DNA of 46,594 bases, taken from positions 1 to 46,594 of the forward strand of contig JAATGF010000180.1 of assembly GCA_015654795.1 (NCBI GenBank). The letters run 5' to 3'. The DNA comes from Bacteroidales bacterium. Lineage in GTDB: Bacteria > Bacteroidota > Bacteroidia > Bacteroidales > Prolixibacteraceae. Within the stretch, counting starts at the first letter, position 1; the number at the start of each line of letters is the position of its first letter. The notes under the pieces are model-generated. The model made no database searches. It worked only from the letters and a program-made list of their open reading frames with translations, and was not told the DNA's origin. Positions 439 to 42,731 of this stretch are shown here, piece after piece. A program made the position numbers and the translations under genes.

Positions 439-2070
439 TTAATTAGTTGCTGCCTTAAATTCAGCTTTGCAATACCTGATTCCCTCGGCATCGTACCGTT
501 TAATTTGTTCAAGCATACGTTTTTTGAACCACTGATAGTTTCGGCTTTCTTTAGTCGACCATAATACTTCCGACAAAGCTGCCGCCCGTGGAAATATCAT
601 ATATTCAACGTATTCCGGAGTTTTCATGTATTGTGTCCAGACGTTTGCCTGTGCGCCGATAATATATCTGGCTTCTTGTCTCGTGAGATCTTTCGGAACA
701 GGCTCAAAATTATAGACCTGTTCGAGGGTTAAAAGGCCTCCTACAGCCAGAGGTTCTCCTTTAGGATTGGCTTGATACTGGTCAAAATTGCAAAGTTTAG
801 CCGGACACATTATCGTCTGTACTTTTCTTTGAATGGCCGCAATTCCTCCTGTCTGGCCACGCCACGACATTATAACTTCCCGGGTAATTAATGTGTCTTT
901 CACAATATCGTCCCATCCGACCAGTTCTCTTCCGAGTGAATCAAGCGTTTTACCGATTCGTCGAACAAAATAGTCATGCAGATCATGTATTGATCCCATA
1001 CTGTCTGTTTTCATCTTAAGCTGGCACTGCTGGCATTTTTCCCATCGTACTTCTGAACAATCTGCTCCGCCGATATCAAAATACTTACCCGGGAATAGCG
1101 TCGTCATTTCGGCAATCACATCTTTCATAAAGGTATAAGTCCCTTCCTTTCCGGGGCAATACACATCGTTAAACATTCCCCATCTTGTTGCAACTTCGTA
1201 AGGTGCAGCTGTACAGCCCAATTCGGGATATGCAGCCAGCGCTGCCAAAGCGTGCCCAGGCATTTCTATTTCGGGAACGATAGTAATAAAACGTTTTGAA
1301 GCATAGGCAACTATTTCCCTGACATCATCCTGGGAATAAAATCCGCCATGGGGGATTGTATCGGTTCCTGTTGGATTATCGATATGTCCGATCACCGTCG
1401 TTTTTCTTATTGAACCGACTTCTGTAAGCCGGGGATATTTTCTTATTTCAATGCGCCAGCCCTGATCATCAGCCAAATGCCATATAAACGTATTGAATTT
1501 GTGCATCGCCATGTAATCAAGATACTTCAGGATGAATTCTTTAGGCATAAAGTGACGGCTAACATCCAGTTGAAGCCCCCGCCACGAAAAACGCGGGGAA
1601 TCTTTAATTTCAACTCCCGGAATGATAATTTCTGTGACCTGTTTCGAAGTAGAAGGCATTAATTGAATCAATGTTTGCACACCATAAAAAAGTCCGTTTG
1701 GAGAAGCAGCTTCAACAAGTACTCCATCCGCAGTTACTGCAAGATGATAATCTTCTTTCCCAAGTTTGAGATTTTCATCAAGTTTAAGAAAGACGGATCC
1801 ACTTTCTCCACTTTTGGAACCCTCTATTGCATTGCTGATTCCAAAGTATTTCTCCGTATGTTGTGCCAGCAATGATGCTATTTGTCGCATCTGCTCATCA
1901 TCGCTGTTAATCCCGATTTTAGTCGAAGATTTGAGTATAAACAAACCTTCCTGATCAGTTACTTCAGCCGGCAACGGAACAAGTCTTATAACAGGACGTG
2001 GAGGTGGTTCTTTGCACGAAAACAGGACTGAGATGATCCCTATGGTGAGAAGTAATCGGAGAAAATTCAT
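439..2070 (-). CDS. GH20 beta-N-acetylhexosaminidase homologue, lipoprotein, altered active site
   Basis: A 543-residue exported GH20 protein. The N-terminus ends in lipobox LFSC (Cys19), then the GH20 N-terminal alpha/beta domain (about 27-155) and the TIM barrel (about 160-520), with HLADDQGWR and PEIEMPGH clearly recognisable. The family normally removes terminal GlcNAc/GalNAc using an adjacent Asp-Glu pair in H-x-G-G-D-E. Here that site reads D332-I-G-G-A336-D337, so Asp becomes Ala and the acid/base Glu becomes Asp. Two other usually acidic positions also differ: GWDD for GWDE, and WTQY for WTEY. The fold is clear; normal hexosaminidase activity is doubtful. It is the last gene of a likely operon (UPF0104, symporter, GH20), 44 bases after the symporter, in a peptidoglycan locus. 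It could act on an unusual amino sugar, bind sugar only, or be inactive. Confidence 0.9.
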   Translation of the reverse strand: MNFLRLLLTIGIISVLFSCKEPPPRPVIRLVPLPAEVTDQEGLFILKSSTKIGINSDDEQMRQIASLLAQHTEKYFGISNAIEGSKSGESGSVFLKLDENLKLGKEDYHLAVTADGVLVEAASPNGLFYGVQTLIQLMPSTSKQVTEIIIPGVEIKDSPRFSWRGLQLDVSRHFMPKEFILKYLDYMAMHKFNTFIWHLADDQGWRIEIRKYPRLTEVGSIRKTTVIGHIDNPTGTDTIPHGGFYSQDDVREIVAYASKRFITIVPEIEMPGHALAALAAYPELGCTAAPYEVATRWGMFNDVYCPGKEGTYTFMKDVIAEMTTLFPGKYFDIGGADCSEVRWEKCQQCQLKMKTDSMGSIHDLHDYFVRRIGKTLDSLGRELVGWDDIVKDTLITREVIMSWRGQTGGIAAIQRKVQTIMCPAKLCNFDQYQANPKGEPLAVGGLLTLEQVYNFEPVPKDLTRQEARYIIGAQANVWTQYMKTPEYVEYMIFPRAAALSEVLWSTKESRNYQWFKKRMLEQIKRYDAEGIRYCKAEFKAATN

Positions 2071-2114
2071 TTAATGGTTGCTTTATGTTTTCCGGATGAC
2101 AAAAGTACAAAATC

Positions 2115-3497
2115 TTATTTGGATGTAGGATTAATCTTTCTTTGTGTCGCTGGTGACTTTCGATTGTTTCCGACAAAAAGAATCAGCGCATTTAATGCAA
2201 AACCTGTAATTATTAATAGATTGCCAAGTGTACCTTTCCCGTTAAGTGCAATGATTTTTCCTGTCAAAGCAATTGCTCCTCCCACGATCATGGCAGTACT
2301 GCTTCTGATTTTGCTCGCCCTAAAACCTAAAAGTCCTGCTGCCGTTGGAATTATAAATGCTCCTGAAAAAATTGTCAATGCAATTAACAGCGACTGGATA
2401 ATGGACTGAACATTTAGCGAAAGGATAATGCTTAATGTTCCGATAATCAGCATTATGATTTTAGTATTTCGCATTGAATTCTTCTGATCCAACCCTTTTG
2501 AAATCGGATCGCTGATTATGGTTGCCGAAGTGAGTAAAGCTGTTGAGCCGGAAGACATCACAGCCGAAAGAAGTGCCGCAATCAGTAATCCTACGGCCCA
2601 TTCAGGCAAGGTATTAACCATTACCGGTATCAGTGCAGAGCCCTTCTGTAAATGAAGTTCGGGAAATTTATAGGCAGCAAATATACCAAGGAAGGTAATA
2701 CATAAAGAGAAGGGGATCAAAACTATGGCGCTTATCGAGACGCTTTTTCGGGCAATATGTTCATTTTCAGCACAAAATATCCGTGAATAAATATCAGGCC
2801 CGACTACAAAAGTGGTGGAATAGGTTAATAACAGTACAATCAGATCGAAAGCATGAAATCCTTCGTTGAACGGAAATTTCAGTGAAGTCATTGCCGTTGG
2901 AGAAACTGGTTGTGAAAAAAGAATATAAAGAGCAGTTACTAAAATTCCCGTGAGGATGATCGCAGTCTGGTACATATCTGTTTTTAAGACAGATATTTGT
3001 CCGCCGATCACGGTATAGAAAATAAAAACAGCGCCCGAGCTCCAGACCGCGATAGAATAATCCAATCCGGTAAATCCGTTCAGAATTTTTGCTGCCCCAA
3101 TAATTTGAGCAGCAATAATGCCGATCCAGGCAAAAGAGATGATAAAAGAGGAGATTATTTTTGCTTCATTCCCGTAAAAATCGCCAATCATCTGAGGGAG
3201 TGTGTATTTCCCTTGTCGTCGAACCACCATTGAAAAAGGAACCAACAAAAAAAGACCTGCGGATGCGCTTATTAAAAGCCATGATGCTGCCCATCCTTGT
3301 GTAAGTGCAAGATCGGCAGTACCTAAAATTGCTGAACTTCCCAAGATTGTTGCAAGCAAAGATCCCGTGATCTGCCACAAATTTCCACGTTTTCCGGCTA
3401 CATAGTAATCGCCTTCTGACCGGATTTTCCTTGCGGAAACAACTCCGATCAATATCATTGAAGCAATGTAAACTATTATAGATAAGTATATAACCAT
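2115..3497 (-). CDS. Sodium:solute symporter (SSS family), candidate amino-sugar importer
   Basis: A 460-residue inner-membrane protein with about 12-13 hydrophobic segments. It carries an SSS-like N-terminal signature after the first helix (KIRSEGDYYVAGKRGN, then the glycine/serine-rich second helix). SSS proteins couple sodium entry to uptake of sugars, amino acids or nucleosides. Substrate cannot be read from sequence. The gene lies 12 bases after the UPF0104 gene and 44 bases before the GH20 gene, so it is probably cotranscribed with both. In Tannerella forsythia an inner-membrane MurNAc transporter (MurT) is encoded with MurK and MurQ. Here no transporter adjoins murK-murQ, so this symporter is a reasonable candidate for MurNAc or GlcNAc entry (inference). 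Confidence 0.85.
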   Translation of the reverse strand: MVIYLSIIVYIASMILIGVVSARKIRSEGDYYVAGKRGNLWQITGSLLATILGSSAILGTADLALTQGWAASWLLISASAGLFLLVPFSMVVRRQGKYTLPQMIGDFYGNEAKIISSFIISFAWIGIIAAQIIGAAKILNGFTGLDYSIAVWSSGAVFIFYTVIGGQISVLKTDMYQTAIILTGILVTALYILFSQPVSPTAMTSLKFPFNEGFHAFDLIVLLLTYSTTFVVGPDIYSRIFCAENEHIARKSVSISAIVLIPFSLCITFLGIFAAYKFPELHLQKGSALIPVMVNTLPEWAVGLLIAALLSAVMSSGSTALLTSATIISDPISKGLDQKNSMRNTKIIMLIIGTLSIILSLNVQSIIQSLLIALTIFSGAFIIPTAAGLLGFRASKIRSSTAMIVGGAIALTGKIIALNGKGTLGNLLIITGFALNALILFVGNNRKSPATQRKINPTSK

Positions 3498-3509
3498 AGT
3501 TATTTAAAT

Positions 3510-4415
3510 TCAGTCCTTAAATTCACTCCGTTTTTCCGATAATTGATCCGGAACCTGTTCTCGTCTGAACGGCGGGAAGAATACCCAATATAAACCACCT
3601 AAAGAGAAAAAGGCCGAAAGAAGGAAAAACATGAAGCTTAGTGCAATACACAATTCAATATTAAGTCCGAGAGTTTTTGCACCAAGGAGAAAAACCATTT
3701 CGCGTGCACCAATTCCGCCAACGGTGATTGGAAGTGCAGTTGCAATTGTTGCTACAAAAAAGAGGAAAAGGTAATCGAACAGATCAGCTGTCTGATGAAA
3801 AGCGCACAGAATAAACAGTGCTGAAATAAATTGCGCTATTTGCAAAGCCAGTGACCACCAGAATAAAGCGGCATGGATTTTCAAAAAACTTTTCAAAAAG
3901 AGCCTGAGAACAAAATAGTAAAGGGCATAAACTGCCGGTATACCAATCCATACTCCCTTTCCGTAGGCAATGTGAAGTTCTGAAAGGTAATACAACACTA
4001 CAGTGATCATGCCTACTGCTACAAGTCCTGAGATCCGGTTCACCAACATGGTCCCGATGTTCTTTTTAATGCCGTTTTTTCGGTATTTATTAACAAGATA
4101 AACCTTAATGCCATCGCCGCCAATGCCGCCGGGAAGAAACAGATTATAGAACAATCCCAGCCAGAAAAGCTTGATATTAAGAACTTGTGAAAGATTTGCA
4201 CCCGTATTCCTGAATGAGAGATTCTGTCGGAAGGCCGACAAAACAAACGACAATACTAAAAAGAAGGCCGCTCCCAGGATATAGAAAGCATTTGCTGTTG
4301 AAAAGACATTCAAAACCTCTTTGAACGAGATTTTAGAAAGCACATACCAAATTGCGGAAACCGTTACAATTAGTTTTAAAAGGTTTATGCCAATCTTTTT
4401 AGTTTTATGCCTCAC
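3510..4415 (-). CDS. UPF0104 / lysylphosphatidylglycerol synthase-like membrane protein
   Basis: A 301-residue integral membrane protein with about 7-8 hydrophobic segments. It has the features of the YbhN/AglD/MprF-transmembrane family, including the loop LFLPGGIGGDGIKVYLV and the later PITVGGIGARE segment. It lacks the soluble lysyl-transferase domain of MprF, so it is not a lipid aminoacylating enzyme; roles suggested for stand-alone members involve lipid-linked substrates. The start codon is GTG at 4415, chosen because the signal-anchor-like helix follows directly and no ATG is better placed. A promoter-like element lies at 4502-4530, and the symporter follows after 12 bases. Its job in a peptidoglycan locus is unknown. 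Confidence 0.75.
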   Translation of the reverse strand: MRHKTKKIGINLLKLIVTVSAIWYVLSKISFKEVLNVFSTANAFYILGAAFFLVLSFVLSAFRQNLSFRNTGANLSQVLNIKLFWLGLFYNLFLPGGIGGDGIKVYLVNKYRKNGIKKNIGTMLVNRISGLVAVGMITVVLYYLSELHIAYGKGVWIGIPAVYALYYFVLRLFLKSFLKIHAALFWWSLALQIAQFISALFILCAFHQTADLFDYLFLFFVATIATALPITVGGIGAREMVFLLGAKTLGLNIELCIALSFMFFLLSAFFSLGGLYWVFFPPFRREQVPDQLSEKRSEFKD

Positions 4416-4501
4416 GGGAATTCATTTGATTTTAAATGATTTGACGTTTACTGCATTGACGAGTCAAAGACTTTCGGTCAGCCACGTTTCATTGCAGAAG
4501 G

Positions 4502-4530
4502 CAAAAGTATTGAATATTGCATTATCACAA
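4502..4530 (-). promoter_or_regulatory. Candidate promoter for UPF0104-symporter-GH20
   Basis: On the minus strand there is a TACTTTTG -7 box (4502-4509) preceded by TTG (4528-4530) with an 18-base spacer, close to the Bacteroidota TTTG-N19-21-TAnnTTTG pattern. It sits about 87 bases upstream of the GTG start at 4415, in the 163-base gap after the upstream gene. Confidence 0.4.
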
Positions 4531-4578
4531 CAGGGTTATCGGATTAAAAAACAGTTACTGTTATGATGATTGGCTAAC

Positions 4579-5688
4579 TTACAACTTAATAAATACTTTA
4601 CGTTTATAAAGAAAATAACAGATTCCCCACATCATTGCCCAAACGGAAAGCGTCAAAGCCATTTCAACTGTCAGTTCGTTGAAGACGCCGAAAATTGCCG
4701 TGATAAATGGTTTGGCAATGGCTTTAAGCCAATCGTTACCGCCTGTATGGGCAAATAAGTAAATAAATAGCGGATTCATCCCGACAATTGCAAAAAACAA
4801 TGTGAACTTTTTGTAATTCCTCACATCAATCAGCCAGTACGAAATGGCCAATGCGATAAGGCACCATCCGCCGCTAACAATTACAAAAGAACTCGTACAT
4901 ATGTGTTTGATAATCGGGATAAAAGAACTCATTCCGTAGCCAATAATCAAACCGATTATTCCTGTAATTGCAAGGATTTGAATTTTCTTACGTGGTTTCC
5001 ATTCGTTCATCAGGATCATTCCGGCAATTACGCCCCATATGGTATGGGCAGTTGTCGGGATGGCATTGAAAGCAACCCAGTTTCCTCCACTTAAGCTACC
5101 TGTCAGCGCAAGATCGAACCACGACCCAAAATTTTGATCGGGCGTGAATGGTTGATTGAAACCTTCCACACTCCAAAACCGGTAAAGTAAGTCGGATGCA
5201 AGGATCATCAGGAACGAAATCAGTAACTGCCATTTAACAGCCTTTCTCATGATTAGGAAGGCAATCAGATAGGTGACGGAGAGCTGAGCAAGGACATTTG
5301 TAAAATGATAGGTAATCTCTCCGGGACCAATACAATAGAGCGCCCAACCCAGGAAAAGCAGCAATACGGAGCGGGTCAATGCATGATGAAAAGTTTTATT
5401 CCAGCTATCACCCCTGTTCCACCTGCGGGTCATTGAAAATGGCATGGCAACTCCGACGATAAACATAAAGAAAGGCTGAATCAAATCCCAGAAGTGAAGT
5501 CCTATCCAATCAACATGATGCAGTTGTCGGCCAAATGCAGAAATAATTGTCCCATCCAGAGAAGGATTGACCAAAGTACCGAAGAAGCCCGAAAACTCGC
5601 CAACAAGCATAAACATTGTAAATCCCCTGAAAAAATCGATGGAGAGCATTCTGCTCTGATCCTGATTTGGAAGGACTGTATTATTCAT
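4579..5688 (-). CDS. HGSNAT/NagX-like transmembrane acyltransferase (DUF5009), copy 1
   Basis: A 369-residue polytopic membrane protein with about 10-11 hydrophobic helices. It starts with the family signature SIDFFRGFTMF and the loop W-x-GLHFWDLIQPFFMFIVGVAM. Homologues include human heparan-alpha-glucosaminide N-acetyltransferase, which passes an acetyl group across a membrane to glucosamine, and bacterial NagX proteins found with GlcNAc catabolism genes. Here it could re-acetylate deacetylated amino sugars at the inner membrane, or help their transport (inference). A paralogue lies at 26158. The gene is monocistronic-looking: 568 bases separate it from gntR upstream and 163 from the next gene downstream. 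Confidence 0.8.
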   Translation of the reverse strand: MNNTVLPNQDQSRMLSIDFFRGFTMFMLVGEFSGFFGTLVNPSLDGTIISAFGRQLHHVDWIGLHFWDLIQPFFMFIVGVAMPFSMTRRWNRGDSWNKTFHHALTRSVLLLFLGWALYCIGPGEITYHFTNVLAQLSVTYLIAFLIMRKAVKWQLLISFLMILASDLLYRFWSVEGFNQPFTPDQNFGSWFDLALTGSLSGGNWVAFNAIPTTAHTIWGVIAGMILMNEWKPRKKIQILAITGIIGLIIGYGMSSFIPIIKHICTSSFVIVSGGWCLIALAISYWLIDVRNYKKFTLFFAIVGMNPLFIYLFAHTGGNDWLKAIAKPFITAIFGVFNELTVEMALTLSVWAMMWGICYFLYKRKVFIKL

Positions 5689-6256: not shown

Positions 6257-6982
6257 TTATAAAAAGCTTTTAAAATATTTCACATAAACCTCCATATTGC
6301 GTTCCAGCAATTCAACTGAGTATTGATAGGCTTTCTGATCGTTTTGGGCTTCTACAGCATCTAAAATACATTGCTGAAGTCGTAATGTATACTCTTTCTC
6401 ACCTTCTACATTGGCATAGATCATATTCCGCATCCGTGGTAATAATGAATAAATAGGTTCCATACTGATTATAATAATCGGATTCGCAGTGGCTTTCGAC
6501 AGATTCATATGGAAACGGTTTATCATATCGACCTCAAGCTGCGTATTATCAGGATCACATTTGGCCAATTCAGCGAGATTCTCTTTTAATAATTTTATAT
6601 CATCATCTGTACGATTGCGGGAGGCCAATCGTGCAATCTCTGGTTCAAACAATCTCCTGACTTCAATGATCTGTGTAATCAGATTGGAATCAAATTTAAG
6701 ATCGTAATAGAGGTTGAGCGAATTAATTGCGTCTTCAATTTTTATTTCCGAAACGATCATTCCGCTCCCTTTTCGAATCACAATCAATCCACGAGCGCTT
6801 AATCGTCGCAGCGCTTCGCGTAAAGCGGTCCGGCTTACTGCAAAACTTTCGCATAATTCTTTCTCTGATGGGAGCCTGGCTCCTGCGACTAACTTTTTTT
6901 GCCGTATTGCCTCTTCAATCTTACGTTCGATCTTTTGACTTAGCGTCTGGCTAATGCGTATTTTACCGAATAATTCTTCCAT
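6257..6982 (-). CDS. GntR-family (FCD/FadR-type) transcriptional regulator
   Basis: A 241-residue regulator. The N-terminal winged helix (about 14-80) has the classic GntR motif LPSEKELCESFAVSRTALRE and wing KGSG. The C-terminal helical domain (about 95-230) is FCD-like, with VRRLFEPEIARLA and D-x5-FH. Two histidines usual in the FCD metal site seem replaced (LQQCILDAV and LERNM), so metal-dependent sensing may be lost. Such regulators usually repress until a small acid or sugar acid binds. It is the only DNA-binding regulator in the locus and lies next to SusD/SusC. It has its own strong promoter at 7012-7042. Dyads fitting the family consensus TnGTnnnACnA occur before susC, the transglutaminase gene and murK, so it probably controls this locus (inference). 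Confidence 0.92.
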   Translation of the reverse strand: MEELFGKIRISQTLSQKIERKIEEAIRQKKLVAGARLPSEKELCESFAVSRTALREALRRLSARGLIVIRKGSGMIVSEIKIEDAINSLNLYYDLKFDSNLITQIIEVRRLFEPEIARLASRNRTDDDIKLLKENLAELAKCDPDNTQLEVDMINRFHMNLSKATANPIIIISMEPIYSLLPRMRNMIYANVEGEKEYTLRLQQCILDAVEAQNDQKAYQYSVELLERNMEVYVKYFKSFL

Positions 6983-7011
6983 CAGATTAGTTGTTTCAAA
7001 AATTTACTTAA

Positions 7012-7042: not shown

Positions 7043-7065
7043 ATGCATTACGATTTTAAAATCCT

Positions 7066-7511: not shown

Positions 7512-9338
7512 TTACCAGCCCGGAGTCTGTGTTAATTTGTAGCCTTTACCCAGATATTCGCTAATCTGAGTATTACCAATTGGCGCTAAATAAACACGAT
7601 CAGTAAAAGCATCTCTGTTTGAAACGTTTTCGGGAATGTAGTAACCTACCATATCGGCAGCATTTGAACCTGTATATGTGACTATCGTTCCGTCTTCCTT
7701 TTTAACCTTTAAGTTATTTACTTTAGCAGCAACTAACCATTCGGTATATTCTGCAGGGAAGTTAATCCATAAACCAAGAAGATTGTCAGGATCAGTGTTC
7801 TTCATATAATCGATTTTTTTCCACCGTTTAATATCCATCAGACGGGTATGCTCAAATACAAATTCCATTCTGCGTTCGCGGCGAATTTCCCAAATCAGGG
7901 CAGGAACATCTGCGTCACGATCAGGATCATCAGGAAGGGTTGCTAATGTTAATGGAGCTGTCTTCTTAATCCCTTTGGCGATAGCTGTTGCATCTAAAGG
8001 ACGGTTACGAATTGCATTTACAGATGCATCAAGATCTGCCTGAACCACGGCTGTTCCACCTAATGTTGCCAATTCGGCTTTGGCTTCAATCCAGTTCAGT
8101 ACAACTTCTGCCAGACGCATTACAGGAGCATCATTCGTATTTGTACTTGAACCGTACATCGGAGTATAAGGTCCCGGATATTGTTTCACACCCTCACGGT
8201 CAATAAACTTACAGGCATAAAGTAATGTACCGGATTCCTTCTTAGGTGCACCCCAGAATGTAGCCTCAAAACGAGGGTCGCGGGTAGCAACCATATTATT
8301 GATATCCAATTTGTCAGCATTTGCAACAGCTGATAATTTATAAGGCATACCGTCGTTACATACAAATGATTTGGCCAATTTTAAATTTGGGGCATTACTT
8401 TGACTTTCGTACAAATTTGAATACGAAGCAACCGAATGCATTACACCAATTGCTGCATCATATGTTCTGTACATTATTATTTCCTTATTAGTAGCCAGAT
8501 CCTGTGAACCGAACAACGAACGGAAGTCACTTGTAAATGCATATGCACTGTTTGACATAACAACAGCTGAAGCCCGGACAGCTAAATCAAGGTATTTTTT
8601 AGCCTTTTCTGTATTATTCAGCTGATATTTTTGCCATGTTCCTTCAAATAACATAAAGCGGGAGATAAAACCGGCAGCAATGTATTTGTTCAGGTACTGG
8701 ACATTTCCATCAGAGGTGCGCATATTGTCAAGAACATACACAAAATCATCATATACTTTGTCCATTACCAGCGTTCTGCTGTCTCTGTCTTTGTACATCT
8801 GGTCAAATTCTGTGTCTTTTATAACCTTGTCATAATAAGGTACGTCTCCAAATACACTTACAAGGCGGCTGTACTCATATCCTCTGAAAAAACGAGCTAC
8901 TGCAGACCAATGCTGATAAACGCTTGTAGTAATTTGTTTATCTTTCATCGCCTCTATTCTTTCAAGGAATAAGTTTGATTTGCGCACCCACGCGAAATCC
9001 CATGTAGGTCCTGCATAGGAGTTTAACCATGAAGCAGTTTCACTTGTTGATCCTCTCGAGTCAGGCGCCTGTGATTCAAAGTTACCTTGCTTTCCTGAAG
9101 AGGTAAAGTCATCTGAAAAATAATAGCCACGCAGCGGAGCATAATCTTCAATAAAACCTGAATTATACCCGACAAAGTAGTTTGTATAGAAACCGTTCGC
9201 AAATAAACGAAGGTTATTTTCGGATGTCCAGTAGTTGTCGTCGTTCATTGTTGTCAACGACGGTCTGTCAAGATAATCGCTGCAACCAGCGAAACCCAGC
9301 GAAATTACGAACAGTAAAATGAATGAATATTTTTTCAT
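7512..9338 (-). CDS. susD: SusD/RagB-family surface glycan-binding lipoprotein
   Basis: A 608-residue SusD-like lipoprotein with lipobox LGFAGC (Cys19) followed by SDYLDRP. It then has the helical TPR-type SusD fold and the typical C-terminal region with IRNRPLDATAIA and IWEIRRERRMEFVFEHTRLMDIKRW. SusD forms the lid over the SusC barrel and captures the glycan at the outer surface. It starts 12 bases after susC ends and is followed by a strong terminator. The surrounding genes are nearly all peptidoglycan enzymes, so its ligand is more likely murein fragments than a plant polysaccharide (inference). No carbohydrate-specific enzyme of another kind adjoins it. Confidence 0.95.
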   Translation of the reverse strand: MKKYSFILLFVISLGFAGCSDYLDRPSLTTMNDDNYWTSENNLRLFANGFYTNYFVGYNSGFIEDYAPLRGYYFSDDFTSSGKQGNFESQAPDSRGSTSETASWLNSYAGPTWDFAWVRKSNLFLERIEAMKDKQITTSVYQHWSAVARFFRGYEYSRLVSVFGDVPYYDKVIKDTEFDQMYKDRDSRTLVMDKVYDDFVYVLDNMRTSDGNVQYLNKYIAAGFISRFMLFEGTWQKYQLNNTEKAKKYLDLAVRASAVVMSNSAYAFTSDFRSLFGSQDLATNKEIIMYRTYDAAIGVMHSVASYSNLYESQSNAPNLKLAKSFVCNDGMPYKLSAVANADKLDINNMVATRDPRFEATFWGAPKKESGTLLYACKFIDREGVKQYPGPYTPMYGSSTNTNDAPVMRLAEVVLNWIEAKAELATLGGTAVVQADLDASVNAIRNRPLDATAIAKGIKKTAPLTLATLPDDPDRDADVPALIWEIRRERRMEFVFEHTRLMDIKRWKKIDYMKNTDPDNLLGLWINFPAEYTEWLVAAKVNNLKVKKEDGTIVTYTGSNAADMVGYYIPENVSNRDAFTDRVYLAPIGNTQISEYLGKGYKLTQTPGW

Positions 9339-12901: not shown

Positions 12902-12927
12902 TAATACATTTGTATGTTGTATTACAT
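12902..12927. promoter_or_regulatory. Candidate GntR operator upstream of susC
   Basis: TTGTATTACAT (12917-12927) fits the FadR-type GntR consensus TnGTnnnACn. It is nested with a second inverted repeat, TAATACA (12902-12908) and TGTATTA (12918-12924). Related dyads overlap promoters at 18898 and 40883. A clear -7 box for susC was not found; TATCTTTA (12899-12892, minus) is a 7-of-8 match downstream. Confidence 0.35.
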
Positions 12928-16031: not shown

Positions 16032-16056
16032 TAGGTGTTTATTTTGAATCATTAAA

Positions 16057-18866: not shown

Positions 18867-18897
18867 AATATTAATTCTTTTTCTACCTTTACAATTA

Positions 18898-18913
18898 TTG
18901 TAATACAAATTTA
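18898..18913 (-). promoter_or_regulatory. -7 box overlapped by a GntR-type palindrome, transglutaminase promoter
   Basis: The minus strand reads TAAATTTG (18913-18906), a full -7 match, which shares TTG with the perfect 11-bp dyad TTGTATTACAA (18908-18898). A TTTG upstream is 24 bases away, longer than the usual 19-21. Operator over the transcription start is what a simple repressor would use. The ATG is about 32 bases downstream. Confidence 0.4.
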
Positions 18914-21252: not shown

Positions 21253-21277
21253 TTGCCCGGCTTTAAAGCCGGGGCAA
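21253..21277. terminator. Bidirectional hairpin terminator overlapping the GH3 stop codon
   Basis: TTGCCCGGCTTT (21253-21264) pairs with AAAGCCGGGGCAA (21265-21277) with one bulged G. On the plus strand a T-rich tract follows. It sits between the convergent genes ending at 21218 and 21263. The last codons and the TAA of the GH3 gene lie inside the stem. Confidence 0.7.
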
Positions 21278-27270: not shown

Positions 27271-27317
27271 AATCAATGCAATTAAATAAATTAATCATCC
27301 TAAATTCAGATATCATC

Positions 27318-35114: not shown

Positions 35115-36047
35115 TCACAGTTGATTGATCAGTTTTATTACAGCCTGAGGCTCAAGACAAACCTGTTTAAAGATGTCCTGTACATCCTCTTTTGATATTT
35201 TAATAAAGTCCTCCTCTCTGGGTGTAATTAAAACTCCTCCCATATCGACCGATGCCGGACTCAAAATTAACTGTTTTTCACCGGATTCGAAATATTGGGC
35301 AGGTCGATGCAACGTCCTTGGGAAAATATGAATGATCCATTCTCCGTGTTCAAATATAGCAAGAATATTAAGCATTGGTTCAACCTCATCGGGTTGTAAT
35401 ATTTGCAATTTACGATATACGCGATTAAAACATTCAATTAAATCAACCTTGTTTTTGCCGTTTAGCGAGATGGTTCCTCGTTGATAGTTTGGCCAGTGGA
35501 AGATGGTAATGTTACCAATCCGACGAACCTCCCGGCAACATTTGTTATTTAGAAAATCAACTTCAATTGATAAGAAACCTTTTATTCCTGCCTGAAAATG
35601 AAGATGATCGGGTGCCGATGCTCCACATTTGGGTCCGTTATAAAAAATGACAAAATCATCCAGACTGGCAGCAAGGTCGAGCATACTTCCAAAATTTCCG
35701 ATGATTCGCTGATCAGTATGTGAAATATTTGGAATGGTAAGATGTTCGGGGAATATTGGAAAAGGATTTACCAGTACGACATATTCACTATTAAAGGATA
35801 AGCTTCGTTGTTGGGATGGACGGTTTTTCTCACATAAAAAGCAGGGTCGTGCTTCAATGGATTTGGTGTCAACTTTGGCAGCCGAAGATACAATTCGCTC
35901 CGGATTAAATTGGATATCAATGTGATAATCTCCATAATCGAATGTTTTTATCTTGACATTTTTTAAACTGCCATAGTTCTTTGCTGCAAGATCCCATTCA
36001 CCAATCTGTTCGCGTATTAACTCCCTTGCTTTTTTTGAAAACTCCAT
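35115..36047 (-). CDS. DUF4922 HIT/GalT-like nucleotidyltransferase or phosphorylase
   Basis: A 310-residue soluble protein of the DUF4922 family. It has a Cys69-F-L-Cys72 pair that could bind zinc as in GalT-like proteins, the PFPIFPEHLTIPNISHTDQ segment typical of HIT/Ap4A-phosphorylase folds, and the catalytic-type H148-L-H150-F-Q152. HxHxQ enzymes transfer a nucleotidyl group through a histidine intermediate or phosphorolyse nucleotide sugars. No signal peptide is present, so it is cytoplasmic. It lies between a GT2 gene and the SpoIID gene in the murein operon. It may make or break a nucleotide-activated amino sugar, a job like that of MurU in other bacteria (inference; the substrate is unknown). 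Confidence 0.8.
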   Translation of the reverse strand: MEFSKKARELIREQIGEWDLAAKNYGSLKNVKIKTFDYGDYHIDIQFNPERIVSSAAKVDTKSIEARPCFLCEKNRPSQQRSLSFNSEYVVLVNPFPIFPEHLTIPNISHTDQRIIGNFGSMLDLAASLDDFVIFYNGPKCGASAPDHLHFQAGIKGFLSIEVDFLNNKCCREVRRIGNITIFHWPNYQRGTISLNGKNKVDLIECFNRVYRKLQILQPDEVEPMLNILAIFEHGEWIIHIFPRTLHRPAQYFESGEKQLILSPASVDMGGVLITPREEDFIKISKEDVQDIFKQVCLEPQAVIKLINQL

Positions 36048-36120: not shown

Positions 36121-36136
36121 ATTTTCTCATTTTCTC

Positions 36137-36172
36137 TTACTCCATCCATCACCCTTACTCCATCCATCACCC
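36137..36172. repeat. 18-bp tandem duplication across the GT2 stop codon
   Basis: TTACTCCATCCATCACCC is present at 36137-36154 and again at 36155-36172. The stop of the GT2 gene (36167-36169) lies in the second copy. It is probably slippage; both copies would provide a TGA in the same relative place. Confidence 0.6.
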
Positions 36173-37636
36173 TTTCTCCTTTACAGCCTGCTGACGTGCC
36201 CAGAATTCGAGTGTCCTGATTTTATCCTTGTAAAAATTGTGGACATTCATTTTAGCAATATCAAGTGAAGAATCTGAATTTTCATCCCAACGCCGACAAA
36301 GGTACAACGGATCGTAAATTCGCCCTATCTGGTAATGCCGGCTAATTGCAAGTCCCAATGCATAATCCTCGCCATAACTAACATTGGGAACCTGAATTTC
36401 ACGAAGCACGGGGGTATAAAATGCTCGTGGTGCACCCAATCCATTAATTCTTAATGCATTATTTCTTCCATTATCAGGTGTCCACTCTTTATGATCGATT
36501 AATCCAGGGGGAATCTCTTCAAGTTTAAAGTTGACCATTTTATACGAACCCACCACCATCGCGCAGTTTTGATCATAGAATGAGGCAACAACGCGCTGAA
36601 TAACTGTATTATCGATATATAAATCATCACTATCCAACTGAATGGCAAACTTTCCGCAATCGGGATGGTTAATCGCTTCATTCCAGCAACCGCCAATTCC
36701 AAGATCCTTTCGCTTCGGAATTACATGCACAATCCGGTTATCTGAATCCGCAAATGATTTTATAATTTCGGTTGTTCCATCGGTGGAATAGTTGTCGACA
36801 ATGATAAGGTTAAATTTAAAGTCAACTTCCTGACTTAAAACAGATTTTATGGCATCGCTTATTGTTTTGGCACGATTCCATACAGGAATAATTACAGAAG
36901 CTTCGTATTTAAAATTACCGGCAGAAAATGCAATTTCTTTGAATTTTGGGGCAAGCCAGGCTCCAACCACTTTTAAATGTGAGGTACAAGCTTTCTCCAT
37001 TTCTATCTGTTTGAACCGGTTACGCGGGTCGACATAATCAAACATTTTTTCACCCGATTTGCGGGTATCCAATTCGAGTTCCGTATAAAGTAATTCAGGT
37101 AAATGTACCAGCTTGTAGTTTTGCGAAACTTTTAATCGAAGATCGTATAAGCCGGCAAGCTCAAACTCCTCATCCATACGCTGAGCCGCTTCAACTAATG
37201 CTGCAGTTCGAAAAAGCAGTAAAGAGCCAAAGTCGAAATCGTCGCGCAGACTACCATCCTGGTATTCAATAACAGGGTGGGGTTTTAAAACACCCTCTTT
37301 TTGTTCAAAATAATCGGAATAAACCATTCCTGCCCCGCTGTTTTTGGACGTTTGCAACATTCGATGCAAAGCATTTTGCCCCAGATCGAGTGGCAATGTT
37401 TTGGTATAGAGTAAAATGAAGGGGGTAGTTGTATTTTTTGCAAACTCTTTTATTGCTTTTGTTGAAATAAAACTATCCAACTTTATTTTGGCAATATCAG
37501 CTTCTTCAAGGGAACGTTCCAAATTTCCAACCAGAATAATTTTTTCTACAACGCCCGAATCTCTTAACGTTTGTAGCGTTGGTTCAAATTCCGTTCCATC
37601 CTGAACTGGAAAGAAGCATGTGATCTGATTTTTCAT
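36167..37636 (-). CDS. GT2 glycosyltransferase with a degenerate N-terminal GT-A-like half
   Basis: A 489-residue cytoplasmic protein. The C-terminal half (about 245-480) is a clear GT2/GT-A domain: SVIIPVWNRAKTISDAI, LIIVDNYSTDGTTEII, the metal-binding LDSDDLY and YGEDYAL. The first half (about 1-230) looks like a second, degenerate GT-A fold (YSDYFEQKEG, FDFGSLLLF). No transmembrane segment is seen. It lies 14 bases after the amidase gene and precedes DUF4922. A sugar-polymerising enzyme is unexpected in a degradative locus. With DUF4922 it may form a salvage or modification branch that reuses wall sugars (inference). Acceptor and donor are unknown. Confidence 0.85.
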   Translation of the reverse strand: MKNQITCFFPVQDGTEFEPTLQTLRDSGVVEKIILVGNLERSLEEADIAKIKLDSFISTKAIKEFAKNTTTPFILLYTKTLPLDLGQNALHRMLQTSKNSGAGMVYSDYFEQKEGVLKPHPVIEYQDGSLRDDFDFGSLLLFRTAALVEAAQRMDEEFELAGLYDLRLKVSQNYKLVHLPELLYTELELDTRKSGEKMFDYVDPRNRFKQIEMEKACTSHLKVVGAWLAPKFKEIAFSAGNFKYEASVIIPVWNRAKTISDAIKSVLSQEVDFKFNLIIVDNYSTDGTTEIIKSFADSDNRIVHVIPKRKDLGIGGCWNEAINHPDCGKFAIQLDSDDLYIDNTVIQRVVASFYDQNCAMVVGSYKMVNFKLEEIPPGLIDHKEWTPDNGRNNALRINGLGAPRAFYTPVLREIQVPNVSYGEDYALGLAISRHYQIGRIYDPLYLCRRWDENSDSSLDIAKMNVHNFYKDKIRTLEFWARQQAVKEKG

Positions 37637-37650
37637 ATTTATAGCTGAAT

Positions 37651-40600
37651 TTATTTTGATTCAAAGAAATTGATAATTTGCTGCATAAGTATTTTACGAT
37701 CAGTGGAATCGATGATTGTCTCAAAAGGTAATCCCATCGCCGCGACTTTATATTTACCATTGAATATAACACCCGCGCTCACATTATTTTCACCATAACG
37801 GAATGCCGTGATGGCATTTTTTCCTGCAGGTTCAATCCCGTCGGGTGCCTCAACTGTGTAAATATTCGGATCAAATTCGGTATTGAAATTCCACTTTCCC
37901 TTGAACCATTGATGGACATAATCGGTTGAATAAAAGGAACCACCTTTCGATGCATGACCGGTTCTCCAGGAAAAATGCAAAACATCTTTAACAAATTTGG
38001 CAGTAATGGTATCATTGCTTTCACCAAATTCAGATCCAATGTAGGCGCCTGAAATAAAAAGTTTACTTCCTTTTTCTGTGAGTTCTGAAATCTTCGACAT
38101 TAAGGCTGGTGTATAAATTTTATAGTCAATTAGCATTGGGTCTCTTAAGTTACGCGTAGATCGCTCTTCTCCCAAAATAAGATCTGTAGCAAAATAGGAT
38201 GAAATATCAAATTTAGGTTGACTAAAAACTTCATCACTTGTTGAAACAAATGAATAACCGGCATCCATAATGGCTTTTCCATGGATAAAAGGGTAATCGA
38301 AACTATTACCGGGAACTACTTTCCCTTCCATATTGGCATAGCTTGCGCCCCAACCGGGACTATCGTTGTCAAGCCATTTAGATTTACGATCAAAATCATA
38401 TTGAAATCCTGCAAGGCTGATATCCTGACGATCTGCGATACCCTGATCTTTCCACCATTCGATTCCTGATGTGGCACCGTTATCAAAAATGGCAGGCGCG
38501 CAAATGCGATTAAATCCATTCACAATTAGAATATTACCTTTGCTGTTGTTCTTTTGCCCAACTGAAAGTATTTCGCCTGGAAAACTCTCACCGCCATTGT
38601 TAATTGCCGTAACTTTATAACTATAAATCTGGTCGTACTGATCCAGATTTAAAATCAGGGTAGTATCTTCTACAACAACGCCATTATCAAAGCCATTGTC
38701 ATCAATCCGTTTGTAAACTTTGTATTTATCCGGTTTGGCGCTTGGTTCAAGCAGGTCATTAACAGCACTCCAGCTCAATTTAAAAGAATTTTCCCCCAGT
38801 TTTGTAATCGCTAAATGATCAACGGGCAAGGGCTGAACGACATAGCGTCGTTTTTCTTGGTATGACTGAAATTTCAATATCCCTTTATAAATAGCGCGAC
38901 TAACGGCAAAATGGAATCGCGGATCTAAACCATATTTCATATCAGCAATGTTCTGATGCGAAAGCAGTTCCAGCAACATGGTTGGAACGTTTGGCCGCCA
39001 CGCTTCTGAATACTGTTTATCCCAAAGCCCGCGTCTTGTCCATTGTGGATTGAATTGTTGACGAATATCATCAACCAATTGTGTCTGAATCAGATCTGCT
39101 AAGTCGCGGCTTGCCATTCTTGATTTCCCGTTAGGAAAAAGGCCGCTATCAGCCATTGTGCTGTAGATGCCAAGTGTCCCGATAATCGAATCATTTGGGG
39201 TAACTCCCGCGTCGGAATGAAAAGCAAACGCGAGATCAATCGGAATCTTTAAGCCGGCAGCATTACGCTGTTTGTCCGGACCGTTTGGTTTGCCCATCAG
39301 GTAATTAACCCATTCTCCGCGCGACTGGTAATCATCGTTGTAATCGTTCCTGTCTTTATTCAGATTATACGTAAGCGTATCCGGGAAACCGGCATTTTGA
39401 AGATAGTATCTTGCTGCTTCAAGGTAGCGAGGCTTGCCACTTAATTTATAATCAAAGAGTTGTGAGTTATTTTTGATAATCTCGTTCCCCATATTTTTGT
39501 CAGCGAGTGACTTTTTATTCAATATCATTTCATCTGCGGGACGTCGGACCACATTTCCCATTCCGCCTCCGAATTTTACGGCATCCGCTGAAATAGAACC
39601 TGGTTTTTCACTATTGCAACTAATCGTTACCATGCCTATTTTAGGATCTTTTCCCAAATTAAAATCGAATGTTCCAAGGTAAATCCATGTTCCCCCGCCA
39701 ATTTTTTGATTTACCAAAAAATCGGTCGTTCCACCAGCATGGCAGACTGTATATCTTACTTCTGAAGATGAAGTGCTATCGCTTTGGTAGGCAATCGAAA
39801 CGGAATATCGCCCTTTTTCGCTAAAGAAAGGTATGTATTTGATAGACTTATTATTATCTTTCAAACTTGAAAGACGGAGCGAGGTTCCCATTTGAAATGG
39901 ATTGTCGTCTGAAAACAACGTATCTTTGAGTAAAAAGCCTTTGCCAGATTGTTCAACAGATAGTCCATCAGGAATATTCAGTTCTGAACCTCGCGTAGAT
40001 CGGTCATTATCAACGATTACCTCATGCAATTGCCAGTCACGTTCGCGGGGCAGGAAAACGTTGGCACCGCTGTTCTCAAGCATCGGAACAAGATAAGGCA
40101 AAACATAGCTCATTGTAAACATATCTTCCACCGTTCCAAACAGGCGGGCTCGCTGCCATTCCCATCGGTCAAGTTTCGACTCGTAATACCATCCATGACT
40201 GTCCCATAATGCTATGTTGTTATTATACAAACCCGACCAGGGTTTATCTTTACTTGATTGTTGTACAACAGGGATCCGTCCCGATTTGTCTCCCCAAATC
40301 CTACTTTGGTCTGGAGGCATAGTCGTCCGGAATGAGTTTGGAACTAACTCCTTTAATAGATGATGATCGGTAAAAATCTCAAGCGAATAGTTTCTGAACT
40401 TTCGCCCTAAATTTTTTTTAACCGAATTTTCAATATCTGTTACTTCATTCTCCCTTACCGGAATATATGAAAGCGGCGTTGTGAAAAAAACCTGGATAAG
40501 TTTATTTTCCGGATGAATCGACAAAGAATCAAAGCGAATACGTCCCACATGCTGCCAATCCGGCATCAGATTGTCCATTCTTTTGAGATGGCTCCCTGCC

Positions 40601-40707
40601 TTGATGGTAAGACGGGATTGCTTTCCCGTTTGCGGAAAACCAATTAATGGAATGATCGAGATGATCATTACGACAATGCCTATGTGGAGTCGGCTAAATT
40701 TCTTCAT
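37651..40707 (-). CDS. N-acetylmuramoyl-L-alanine amidase split by a golvesin-like domain, with FnIII and C-terminal domains
   Basis: A 1018-residue exported protein (signal peptide to about 26). An N-terminal region (30-150) precedes an Amidase_3 fold in two pieces: H171 in WDSHGWYY and E194 in TVEDMF, then H497 in AFHSDAG and E580 in MLLELLSHQ, so zinc ligands and catalytic Glu are complete. Between them (about 265-390) lies a golvesin C-terminal-like beta domain (KGRYSVSIAYQSD ... ISADAVKFGG). A fibronectin-III domain (about 640-740) and a C-terminal alpha/beta domain (about 750-1015) follow. It should cut stem peptides from MurNAc, giving denuded glycan for the glycosidases nearby. It is first in the long minus-strand series and divergent from murK. 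Homologues are often labelled xanthan lyase in error. Confidence 0.85.
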   Translation of the reverse strand: MKKFSRLHIGIVVMIISIIPLIGFPQTGKQSRLTIKAGSHLKRMDNLMPDWQHVGRIRFDSLSIHPENKLIQVFFTTPLSYIPVRENEVTDIENSVKKNLGRKFRNYSLEIFTDHHLLKELVPNSFRTTMPPDQSRIWGDKSGRIPVVQQSSKDKPWSGLYNNNIALWDSHGWYYESKLDRWEWQRARLFGTVEDMFTMSYVLPYLVPMLENSGANVFLPRERDWQLHEVIVDNDRSTRGSELNIPDGLSVEQSGKGFLLKDTLFSDDNPFQMGTSLRLSSLKDNNKSIKYIPFFSEKGRYSVSIAYQSDSTSSSEVRYTVCHAGGTTDFLVNQKIGGGTWIYLGTFDFNLGKDPKIGMVTISCNSEKPGSISADAVKFGGGMGNVVRRPADEMILNKKSLADKNMGNEIIKNNSQLFDYKLSGKPRYLEAARYYLQNAGFPDTLTYNLNKDRNDYNDDYQSRGEWVNYLMGKPNGPDKQRNAAGLKIPIDLAFAFHSDAGVTPNDSIIGTLGIYSTMADSGLFPNGKSRMASRDLADLIQTQLVDDIRQQFNPQWTRRGLWDKQYSEAWRPNVPTMLLELLSHQNIADMKYGLDPRFHFAVSRAIYKGILKFQSYQEKRRYVVQPLPVDHLAITKLGENSFKLSWSAVNDLLEPSAKPDKYKVYKRIDDNGFDNGVVVEDTTLILNLDQYDQIYSYKVTAINNGGESFPGEILSVGQKNNSKGNILIVNGFNRICAPAIFDNGATSGIEWWKDQGIADRQDISLAGFQYDFDRKSKWLDNDSPGWGASYANMEGKVVPGNSFDYPFIHGKAIMDAGYSFVSTSDEVFSQPKFDISSYFATDLILGEERSTRNLRDPMLIDYKIYTPALMSKISELTEKGSKLFISGAYIGSEFGESNDTITAKFVKDVLHFSWRTGHASKGGSFYSTDYVHQWFKGKWNFNTEFDPNIYTVEAPDGIEPAGKNAITAFRYGENNVSAGVIFNGKYKVAAMGLPFETIIDSTDRKILMQQIINFFESK

Positions 40708-41040: not shown

Positions 41041-41883
41041 ATGATTTTAATTGCAGATAGCGGCACAACCAAAACTGAATGGTGTTTGATAAGTGATCGG
41101 AAAACTTCCGAAACATTGTTCACGTCAGGAATAAACCCATTTTATCAGGAAGCTGGAAATATTTCGGCCATTTTAAATAAAGAGTTTACCGCAGCTAAAA
41201 AATTCGATGCCATCTACTTTTATGGAGCTGGATGTATCAATGAGGAAAAACAGAATATCGTAAAAGAAGCCCTTATAAATGTATTTGACGTATCGCACAT
41301 CTTTATCGGATCTGACCTTTTAGCCGCTGCTCATTCGCTGTGTCAGAATCAGGCGGGAGTCGTTTGTATATTAGGAACAGGCTCAAATTCATGTTATTAT
41401 AATGGAAATGAAATTGTAGCCAACGTTTCACCACTCGGGTTTATTCTTGGCGATGAGGGAAGCGGAGCGGTATTAGGTAAAAAACTGATTGGTGATATTC
41501 TTAAAAAGCAGCTATCCCAATCGTTGATTGATGACTTTTTTGAAACTTACCACACAACTTCGGCTGATATTCTTGAAAATGTGTACAAAAAACCGTTCCC
41601 GAGCCGTTACCTTGCCAATTATACTAAATTTCTTTCAGAAAATATCAAATATCGTGAAATAGAGAATATTGTTGTGACAAGCTTCCGCGAATTTGTGACC
41701 CGGAATTTGCTGCAATACCCGGGAATTGGACAAACACCTGTTCACTTTACGGGGAGCATCGCCTTCCATTTTGAGGCGCAACTTCGAAAAGCCATTGAAG
41801 AGCAGCATCTTATATTAGGAAATATAGAACAAGCTCCGATGAAAGGACTTATCAGGTACCATAACAACAAAATTTTCTTATAA
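41041..41883 (+). CDS. murK: MurK-like amino-sugar kinase (BadF/BadG family)
   Basis: A 280-residue cytoplasmic kinase of the BadF/BadG/BcrA GlcNAc-kinase type. It has phosphate-1 motif ADSGTTKTEWCL at the N-terminus, GSDLLAAAHSLC, phosphate-2 motif CILGTGSNSCYY, sugar-site GDEGSGAVLGKKLI, and adenosine-side FTGSIAFHF. Members phosphorylate GlcNAc and/or MurNAc at C6. The gene is 20 bases before murQ, so MurNAc is the likely main substrate: the kinase makes the MurNAc-6-P that MurQ uses, as in the Tannerella murTKQ operon. It is transcribed away from the amidase operon, with a candidate operator over its -7 box. The start has no strong Shine-Dalgarno sequence. Confidence 0.88.
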   Translation: MILIADSGTTKTEWCLISDRKTSETLFTSGINPFYQEAGNISAILNKEFTAAKKFDAIYFYGAGCINEEKQNIVKEALINVFDVSHIFIGSDLLAAAHSLCQNQAGVVCILGTGSNSCYYNGNEIVANVSPLGFILGDEGSGAVLGKKLIGDILKKQLSQSLIDDFFETYHTTSADILENVYKKPFPSRYLANYTKFLSENIKYREIENIVVTSFREFVTRNLLQYPGIGQTPVHFTGSIAFHFEAQLRKAIEEQHLILGNIEQAPMKGLIRYHNNKIFL

Positions 41884-41903
41884 AATATTTAGAAGTGTAG
41901 TTT

Positions 41904-42731
41904 ATGAAGTCAGCAGTTAAAACCAAAACCAGTATTACTGAATCACCTTCGAATTTTGACAATCTCGACAAGATGTCAGTCGAAGAGTTGCTTACACATA
42001 TAAACGAAGAAGATTCGAAAGTTCACCTCGCAGTCAGACAGGCGATTCCGCAGATCAAAAATCTGGTGGAACAAATTGAAGTCAGAATGAAAAAAGGGGG
42101 ACGTGTTTTCTATCTTGGTGCCGGAACAAGCGGCAGGCTTGGGGTTTTGGATGCTTCAGAGGTTCCTCCAACATTTGGCGTTCCTGAAAGTATGGTGATT
42201 GGTTTGATTGCAGGCGGAGATGTAGCACTTCGAAAATCAGTGGAAGCAGCTGAGGATGATCCCAATAAGGCATGGGCCTCACTTCAGGGTTTCAATATTA
42301 ATAAAAACGATATCGTAATTGGTATTGCTGCTTCAGGAACAACGCCTTATGTGATTGGCGGAATCAAACTTGCCCGCGAAAATGGCATACTGACCGGCTG
42401 TATTACTTGCAATCCCGGGAGTGCAATCGCAGAAGTTACTGAATATCCGATAGAAGCAATCGTTGGACCTGAATTCCTGACAGGTAGTACACGGCTTAAA
42501 GCAGGCACAGCCCAAAAGATGATTCTCAATATGATCACGACTTCTATCATGATCAAATTGGGAAGGGTGAAAGGGAATAAAATGGTGAATATGCAGCTCA
42601 CAAATAAAAAACTGATTGAGCGCGGAACCCAAATGATTGTTGATGAGATTAATATACCAACTGACGAAGCACGTCGGTTATTACTGATACATGGTTCGGT
42701 TAAAAAGGTGATTGAAGCCTATCAAAAATAA
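41904..42731 (+). CDS. murQ: N-acetylmuramic acid 6-phosphate etherase
   Basis: A 275-residue cytoplasmic SIS-domain lyase. It carries the MurQ signature GAGTSGRLGVLDASE (Glu86 at its end) and SVEAAEDD with Glu117; the two correspond to the catalytic-site glutamates reported for E. coli MurQ. AASGTTPYVIGGI and TGSTRLKAGTAQKMILNMI are also typical. It removes D-lactate from MurNAc-6-P to give GlcNAc-6-P, the step specific to murein catabolism. It is the strongest single indicator of what this locus does. It follows murK by 20 bases and ends in a good terminator. NagA and NagB, the next enzymes, are not in the window. Confidence 0.97.
   Translation: MKSAVKTKTSITESPSNFDNLDKMSVEELLTHINEEDSKVHLAVRQAIPQIKNLVEQIEVRMKKGGRVFYLGAGTSGRLGVLDASEVPPTFGVPESMVIGLIAGGDVALRKSVEAAEDDPNKAWASLQGFNINKNDIVIGIAASGTTPYVIGGIKLARENGILTGCITCNPGSAIAEVTEYPIEAIVGPEFLTGSTRLKAGTAQKMILNMITTSIMIKLGRVKGNKMVNMQLTNKKLIERGTQMIVDEINIPTDEARRLLLIHGSVKKVIEAYQK

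Follow-up and report, generated by a model that had tools for sequence, protein, structure and literature searches.

A recurrent murein-gene locus with a SusC/SusD pair of its own clade, probably for peptidoglycan utilization, in a Prolixibacteraceae bacterium

Partial precedents for a SusCD-bearing murein locus have been published. One of them is a 27-kb polysaccharide utilization locus (PUL) of the Urechidicola symbiont of Idas mussels, with two susCD pairs and with most of its genes assigned to murein metabolism (PMC10199937). The other partial precedent is the ampG-murTKQ operon of Tannerella forsythia (Tanf_08345-08385), which codes for a xanthan lyase, two glycosyltransferases (gtf), lytB, ampG, ybbC, murT, murK, and murQ (PMC5388701, PMC7670621). 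Here we describe a 46,594-bp stretch of DNA (hereafter the window), which is one whole contig (JAATGF010000180.1; C120 in our numbering) of the assembly GCA_015654795.1 from a Bacteroidales bacterium of the Prolixibacteraceae, and in which murein genes surround an adjacent SusC (9351-12776) and SusD (7512-9338) pair. Judging from its sequence, the window quite probably holds a peptidoglycan utilization locus, whose SusCD is predicted to import muropeptides or glycan pieces; the locus itself is real, recurrent, and coherent, and has a SusCD clade of its own. The assembly (3.68 Mb in 180 contigs, 68.9% complete by estimate) falls near Mariniphaga and shows 34 SusD matches, one of them inside the window; by this SusD, the closest named relatives are a Mariniphaga metagenome-assembled genome (MAG) together with further MAGs from the Bacteroidia, of which several are Prolixibacteraceae.

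The window has in common with the Urechidicola PUL the SusCD pair, MurQ, AmpG, the L-Ala-D/L-Glu epimerase, an amidase (in the window a match under the cut-off), GH3, and GH171 (the NamZ family). A deoR regulator, nagB, dacA, and GH18 are found in the Urechidicola PUL only, whereas SpoIID, DUF4922, GT2, and GH9-deacetylase, none of which is named in the legend to that PUL, are all present in the window. With the Tannerella operon it shares NamZ (ybbC), MurK, and MurQ, as well as a gene order running from 40707 down to 28958 (golvesin/amidase, GT2, DUF4922, SpoIID/LytB, AmpG), which by names and position matches xanthan lyase-gtf-gtf-lytB-ampG, with a GH9-deacetylase gene inserted in the window and the first and third genes matched by position only. 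An earlier interpretation of the window made without database searches (hereafter the sequence-only reading) had pointed to the T. forsythia murTKQ region as a partial parallel. However, the Tannerella genes form one transcript under GppX, whereas NamZ and MurKQ of the window are on the plus strand and AmpG is on the minus strand; hence, the window is not one operon. Moreover, the gene list in PMC5388701 includes no GntR, NlpC/P60, epimerase, or GH9-deacetylase, and that paper mentions neither 'SusC' nor 'TonB'. Thus, of the components held by the sequence-only reading to go beyond Tannerella, the regulator and the GH9-deacetylase indeed do so, but the glycosyltransferase does not, as the operon there already has two gtf genes (PMC5388701).

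Like canonical SusCD PULs, the window combines an adjacent SusC and lipoprotein SusD with exported hydrolases and a regulator; unlike them, it has a murein-specific gene set with peptidases, an epimerase, MurK, and MurQ, and its regulator is of the GntR/FCD type. RagAB and NanOU are SusCD-type pairs for non-polysaccharide ligands, which have other gene neighbors than the window pair and whose SusD-like components are 12-14% (RagB) and 17% (NanU) identical to the window SusD in fold searches. Hence, the statement that SusCD systems are known for polysaccharides has to be widened, with RagAB being titled a peptide transporter in PDB and NanOU taking sialic acid (PMC3969230). Besides the Urechidicola locus, no other SusCD-bearing murein locus was found by title or abstract in a mostly open-access literature, which leaves such an absence unproven; the available text of PMC11658791, PMC10877868, PMC11169705, and PMC13209645 likewise links no SusCD pair to murein.

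One line of evidence for a tie between this SusCD and murein genes is the recurrence of the neighborhood. We assembled the loci of the best 80 of 577 confirmed SusD relatives (hereafter named loci, L), which are the closest ones, are interdependent, and overlap in part with the genomes (G) considered below. The first count covers the 64 loci with at least 15 kb of sequence, leaving out 16 shorter ones, and uses a strict set of murein genes: NamZ, MurQ, MurK, AmpG, SpoIID, the epimerase (Epim), NlpC, the GH3-beta-lactamase fusion (GH3bla), the golvesin-amidase (GolvAmi), DUF4922, and the transglutaminase-like gene (Tgl). At least one of these lies within 10 kb of SusD in 36 of the 64 loci, at least two in 32, and at least three in 20 (39, 33, and 21, respectively, in all 80), as against none of 20 control loci drawn from the 33 SusD matches that the own genome has outside the window (14 of the 20 being at least 15 kb). 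When GT2, GHL10, GH9deac, MPP_PQQ, and NagXb are added to the list, the counts become 48/64 and 1/20. The co-localization that a comparison of gene order in relatives was to reveal is thus recurrent. SusC is present at more than half its length in 79/80 named loci, with the copy beside the matching SusD being 50-78% identical; L066, the same locus as G018, was counted as unlinked and becomes murein-linked once more sequence is included.

The same loci narrow the extent of the system. The left block (439-5688), comprising a GH20 gene (439-2070, with a lipobox-like N-terminus by eye), an SSF symporter, a flippase-like gene, and NagXa, has none of its four genes in any of the 80 named loci (≥30% identity, >50% coverage); it was therefore rejected as a part of the conserved locus, which spans ~6257-42731 rather than the whole of 439-42731 as first proposed. 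Looser relatives of the block include GH20 at 40-41% in G055 and G342, and NagXa at 28% in G025.

In a FastTree phylogeny of 120 SusD proteins, 105 rows fall in one clade (98) separate from 13 control SusDs, and two further SusDs from murein loci (21% and 23% identity) group with the controls. Murein-linked rows occur on every deep branch of the 105-row clade, and the largest unlinked block is a single 15-row group (91) of Pedobacter and Chitinophagaceae relatives. From this distribution, the murein linkage of the clade is probably old, with losses, gains being also possible. The SusD model (mean pLDDT, predicted local distance difference test, 69.8) has 3i4g as its best PDB match, along with many glycan-binding SusDs and RagAB; the fold permits no ligand inference and was dropped as a clue. 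Near the SusCD pair of L063, L064, L075, L076, L079, and L133 lies another SusC-like piece, next to which a protein of 606-644 residues is encoded, and the neighbor in L064 starts like a SusD lipoprotein; perhaps glycan and peptide import are shared out between the two pairs. Upstream of SusC in L098, L106, L107, and L113, which have no strict murein genes nearby, is a gene that is DeoR-like by its N-terminus (confirmed by Pfam in L106), and a deoR gene is also part of the Urechidicola murein locus (PMC10199937).

A sample of 393 genomes of the order provides a further line of evidence (SusD clade at E ≤ 1e-70, with a maximum of three candidates scored per genome; MurQ at E ≤ 1e-40). The SusD clade is present in 15 and MurQ in 88 of these genomes, with MurQ in 15/15 genomes having this SusD versus 73/378 lacking it (Fisher p=6.6e-11, or 2.9e-10 excluding the own genome, in both cases ignoring kinship of the genomes). 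Taken with the 0/20 control loci, this places the linkage of SusCD to murein genes beyond chance. By manual comparison, MurQ is within 25 kb of SusD on the same contig in 7 of the 14 non-own genomes (G055, G168, G200, G229, G314, G385, G405), the linked copies in G314 belonging to a lower-identity branch. Six of these (all but G055) have AmpG, NamZ, MurK, and MurQ near the SusCD of this clade, together with DUF4922 and GT2 in 6/6 and SpoIID in 5/6. In G405, whose SusD is identical to that of Dysgonomonas mossii DSM 22836 (L117), the core is collinear (NamZ-SSF-GT2-DUF4922-SpoIID-AmpG-NamZ-NagXb-MurK-MurQ), with a divergent MPP-GHL10-SusC-SusD-GH9deac-GolvAmi set. Among the remaining genomes, G018 has NamZ, Tgl, NlpC, and Epim on the SusD contig, G342 has GolvAmi and MurK, G264 has the GH9-deacetylase only, and G095 has GHL10 at one SusD copy and, at the second, a NamZ outside the window group (the two NamZ groups are described below); the murein core was not seen near SusD in G258 and G339, and G363 offers a 4-kb contig only.

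The SusC and NamZ genes also share a putative operator, the palindrome TTGTAnTACAA, which was derived from a GntR/FCD consensus and then tested in relatives; a search of the window alone for short palindromes common to its intergenic gaps gave nothing clear. The window has a copy with one mismatch upstream of SusC (12917-12927, TTGTATTACAT) and an exact one between the transglutaminase-like gene and NamZ (18898-18908, TTGTAATACAA). In the latter gap, the exact motif recurs in 4/5 other members of the genus with this NamZ (G008, G001, G007, and G017, not in G012), and it is likewise exact before SusC in G008, G018, L079, and G025, the last of which has it before NamZ too. Thus, the palindrome lies ahead of SusC and of NamZ in at least two genera. 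Allowing one mismatch, it lies within 350 bp of SusC in 6/7 GntR-bearing named loci (three of which coincide with G008, G018, and G025) versus 57/3000 random stretches. Together, the recurrent neighborhood, the co-occurrence with MurQ among genomes of the order, and the shared putative operator uphold the proposal of a murein-degradation locus with a tied SusCD.

The NamZ of the window permits a complementary view from the side of the enzymes. A NamZ match is found in 56/61 genomes. The matches form two groups: one, with identities of 33-51%, is present in most genomes, whereas the window group, at 53-82%, is rarer and seen in 15/60 other genomes. The window SusCD clade is near 4 of these 15 loci (G008, G018 on an extended stretch, G025, G055), and a different SusC or SusC/SusD is near 3 of them (G001, G043, G046).

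Based on these observations, we propose that foreign bacterial murein would be trimmed at the cell surface, with SusD capturing muropeptides or short pieces of glycan for TonB-powered uptake by SusC. Periplasmic enzymes would then remove the stem peptides and release N-acetylglucosamine (GlcNAc) and N-acetylmuramic acid (MurNAc), and AmpG and NagXb or another permease would carry the products inward, where MurK and MurQ would produce GlcNAc-6-phosphate and the epimerase would make the L-Ala-D-Glu dipeptide accessible to ordinary peptidases. Control of SusC and of the NamZ/transglutaminase genes would fall to the GntR regulator, acting via TTGTAnTACAA. More broadly, we lean towards the view that the 105-row SusC/SusD subfamily is a phylum-wide dedicated murein-fragment importer, ancestrally linked to NamZ-AmpG-MurKQ and kept across families, with a later exchange for PF12771-type pairs in some species. 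The families of the SusD clade presumably belong to the Bacteroidales, Sphingobacteriales, and Cytophagales.

Several observations weigh against our reading of the locus and its SusCD. The named loci include 28/64 without a strict murein gene within 10 kb, among them Pedobacter, Chitinophagaceae, a Bacteroides fragilis strain, and Pedobacter agri with a GH92 gene nearby, and the SusD tree requires 13 changes between linked and unlinked states (the labels coming from stretches of unequal length), which means that the linkage was lost or gained often. Across the phylum, SusD occurs in 12/392 genomes, all 12 with MurQ; as MurQ is found in 290/392, the co-occurrence says little at this level and was dropped as evidence, and MurQ is within 25 kb of SusD in 3/11 non-own genomes (G200, G427, G767; the place of MurQ in G709 is not listed). 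For the window-type NamZ, 8/15 loci show neither this clade nor another SusC on the stretch covered (G007, G012, G017, G022, G034, G036, G044, G057), several of these being short contigs; in G012, of the same genus, NamZ-Tgl-NlpC-Epim stands without any SusC in a 20.6-kb contig. In G001, also of this genus, the SusCD slot flanked by GntR and the metallophosphatase gene is occupied by a SusD of the PF12771 type and a fragmented, distant SusC (L005 11295-16208); murein genes are present, and the operator persists with a single mismatch. The operator at up to one mismatch is itself missing in 1/7 GntR-bearing loci and present in 5/62 others, and the own genome has seven exact sites, one of them beside another gene that is GntR-like by eye (on C19), so that the motif is not exclusive to the murein locus. 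The unlinked relatives, the nearby GH92, and the refilled slot in G001 are what would be expected if the SusCD served another glycan or a peptide and had come to lie in a murein locus by chance or transporter shuffling. Nevertheless, the linkage in many families as against 0/20 controls, the joint presence of SusD and MurQ in genomes of the order, and the shared putative operator before SusC and NamZ make this quite unlikely.

A different use of the same machine, which is compatible with murein import, would be the recycling of the cell's own turnover products, with SusCD recapturing leaked fragments. AmpG, NagZ, and MurQ are classic recycling enzymes. In Tannerella, a similar core serves salvage in a MurNAc auxotroph (PMC5388701, PMC7670621). 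However, a second GH3-NamZ-SSF set on contig C30 of the own genome could do the housekeeping, and the surface-type NlpC/P60, the SusCD pair, and the GntR regulator appear to fit feeding better, leaving recycling as an unlikely, though not negligible, primary role. The SusCD might instead import stem peptides only, with the glycan part entering elsewhere: in the window it follows NlpC/P60 and the epimerase in one same-strand run, and the SusD fold search returns RagAB among many glycan-binding SusDs. Yet the clade also stands beside NamZ, MurK, GHL10, or GH9-deacetylase with no NlpC or epimerase on the stretch (G168, G385, G200, and several named loci), and it is the PF12771-type SusDs that adjoin peptide enzymes in G001 and G018 and thus may be the peptide importers. 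A restriction of the window-type pair to peptides is accordingly improbable, and the import of muropeptides or glycan pieces stays our preferred reading.

The gene calls rest on Pfam and NCBIfam profile searches, with N-termini read by eye without a signal predictor, and genes below are on the minus strand except where marked +. These searches support the named murein genes around one SusC/SusD pair and a GntR gene, with weak amidase and AmpG calls, and confirm the adjacent SusC (TIGR04056, 765 bits) and SusD (PF07980; lipobox-like GFAGC N-terminus; also placed by the tree) with linked exported glycan-degrading enzymes. The regulator (6257-6982; Pfam GntR 2.6e-20, FCD 2.6e-16) has NanR (NF003011) as its best NCBIfam relative (117.2 bits, under the cut-off of 260) and is 96% identical in G008 and 95% in G001. 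By sequence, the exported or surface set comprises NlpC/P60, the transglutaminase-like protein, the epimerase, the amidase-like protein, SpoIID, GHL10, GH9-deacetylase, NamZ, GH3-NagZ, and M28; MurK, MurQ, DUF4922, and GT2 have no signal at the N-terminus by eye.

Next to SusC, in order of coordinates, are an exported metallophosphatase with a beta-propeller (12941-14788, Pfam; relatives within 10 kb of SusD in 26/64 named loci), the dipeptide epimerase of the L-Ala-D/L-Glu type (14892-16052, NCBIfam; PDB 3iji, E 1.4e-153; twin-arginine-like signal; relatives in 15/64), an NlpC/P60 lipoprotein of the dipeptidyl-peptidase VI type with an SH3 domain (16057-17223, Pfam; PDB 3pvq, 9.7e-62; lipobox-like end; 14/64), and a transglutaminase-like lipoprotein (17421-18908, with the true start probably at ~18866; PF01841; lipobox-like end), whose relatives are in G001, G007, G008, G012, G017, G018, and G034 and in 1/64 named loci only. 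The metallophosphatase and transglutaminase-like genes were absent from the gene list of the sequence-only reading. The exo-beta-N-acetylmuramidase NamZ (19202-20446, +; PF07075 3.1e-86; PDB 4k05, 1.7e-159; Sec-like signal) is followed by a 241-residue protein (20493-21218, +) for which the profile searches gave no Pfam or NCBIfam match. Next are the NagZ/YbbD-like GH3 with a beta-lactamase/PBP4B-like domain (21263-24286; Pfam, NCBIfam; Sec-like signal; fusion relatives in 12/64), whose GH3 part has a GH3 N-acetylglucosaminidase as its best PDB match, and an exported M28 peptidase (24337-25620; PF04389 1.6e-36; Sec-like signal) with a relative (82%) in G017 and none in the 80 named loci by automated count. 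RmNag3, a GH3 that is likewise fused to a beta-lactamase domain, was characterized as an N-acetylglucosaminidase, and its gene has no other glycoside hydrolases nearby (PMC6987092).

The remaining minus-strand genes code for the NagX/HGSNAT-like membrane protein NagXb (26158-27276; Pfam, NCBIfam), an exported GHL10 glycoside hydrolase-like protein (27318-28826; PF02638 6.6e-79; Sec-like signal), the AmpG-family muropeptide permease (28958-30649; TIGR00901 147.7 bits, under the cut-off of 350; MFS_1 above cut-off), a GH9 protein with a polysaccharide deacetylase domain (30988-33459; Pfam; Sec-like signal), SpoIID/LytB (33745-35079; PF08486; TIGR02669 163 bits, above cut-off), DUF4922 (35115-36047; Pfam), a GT2 glycosyltransferase (36167-37636; PF00535 1.4e-22), and a golvesin-domain protein with an Amidase_3-like region (37651-40707; Golvesin_C 74.9 bits; Amidase_3 25.0 bits, under the cut-off of 27; Sec-like signal). 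The GH9-deacetylase shows a weak PdaA similarity (TIGR02884 2e-14, under cut-off). As there are exo-glucosaminidases among the GH9 enzymes, de-N-acetylated murein may be its substrate.

The locus ends with the MurK-type MurNAc kinase (41041-41883, +) and the MurQ etherase (41904-42731, +; TIGR00274 314.6 bits, above the cut-off of 302), the sole MurQ match of the own genome. The closest solved relatives of MurK are 1zxo, 1zbs, and the MurK and K1058 entries; it retains the Ser133-Pro134-Leu135 patch (lactyl pocket), with Thr94 replaced by Ser, a substitution shared with 1zxo, and this Ser-Pro-Leu patch has been tied to MurNAc (PMC10465942). The DUF4922 protein, of a GalT/Ap4A-phosphorylase-like fold, gives a model (mean pLDDT 87.1) with structural matches to Ap4A phosphorylase, ADP-glucose phosphorylase, and GalT, and its HxHFQ and CFLC motifs are invariant across 13 sequences, including that of the window. 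These features suggest that the positional counterpart of DUF4922 in Tannerella, which has a glycosyltransferase annotation, may be a nucleotidyl transferase or phosphorylase; DUF4922 itself, which adjoins GT2, may synthesize or cleave a sugar nucleotide during murein salvage.

With regard to inner-membrane transport, NagXb occupies the murT position in five related loci (G405, G168, G385, G229, G314; equated by position) and is at most a candidate for MurT. As to the acyltransferases that had been thought to go beyond Tannerella, NagXa is part of the left block, which is not conserved. MurT is placed in both the sodium symporter superfamily and the major facilitator superfamily in PMC5790795. 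The SSF symporter of the window was rejected as the MurNAc transporter of these loci. In related loci, NamZ or MurQ is mostly accompanied by an SSF family to which BLAST (E 1e-3) did not match the window symporter, and which has a 53% member on C30 of the own genome. That contig bears a second murein set (L015 4632-10453), with a GH3-beta-lactamase relative (42%), a NamZ of the other group (32%), and the SSF symporter.

The Tannerella papers, in their available parts, describe AmpG and MurT at the inner membrane and assign no protein to the outer-membrane step (PMC5388701, PMC7670621). If our proposal is true, murein fragments would cross the outer membrane by way of this SusC/SusD subfamily. 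With a SusD subfamily as a marker of murein loci, this step would become directly testable in cultured species that have the linked locus, for example Dysgonomonas mossii (L117), Bacteroides clarus (L122), and B. luti (L096), and surveys could predict which bacteria live on the walls of others.

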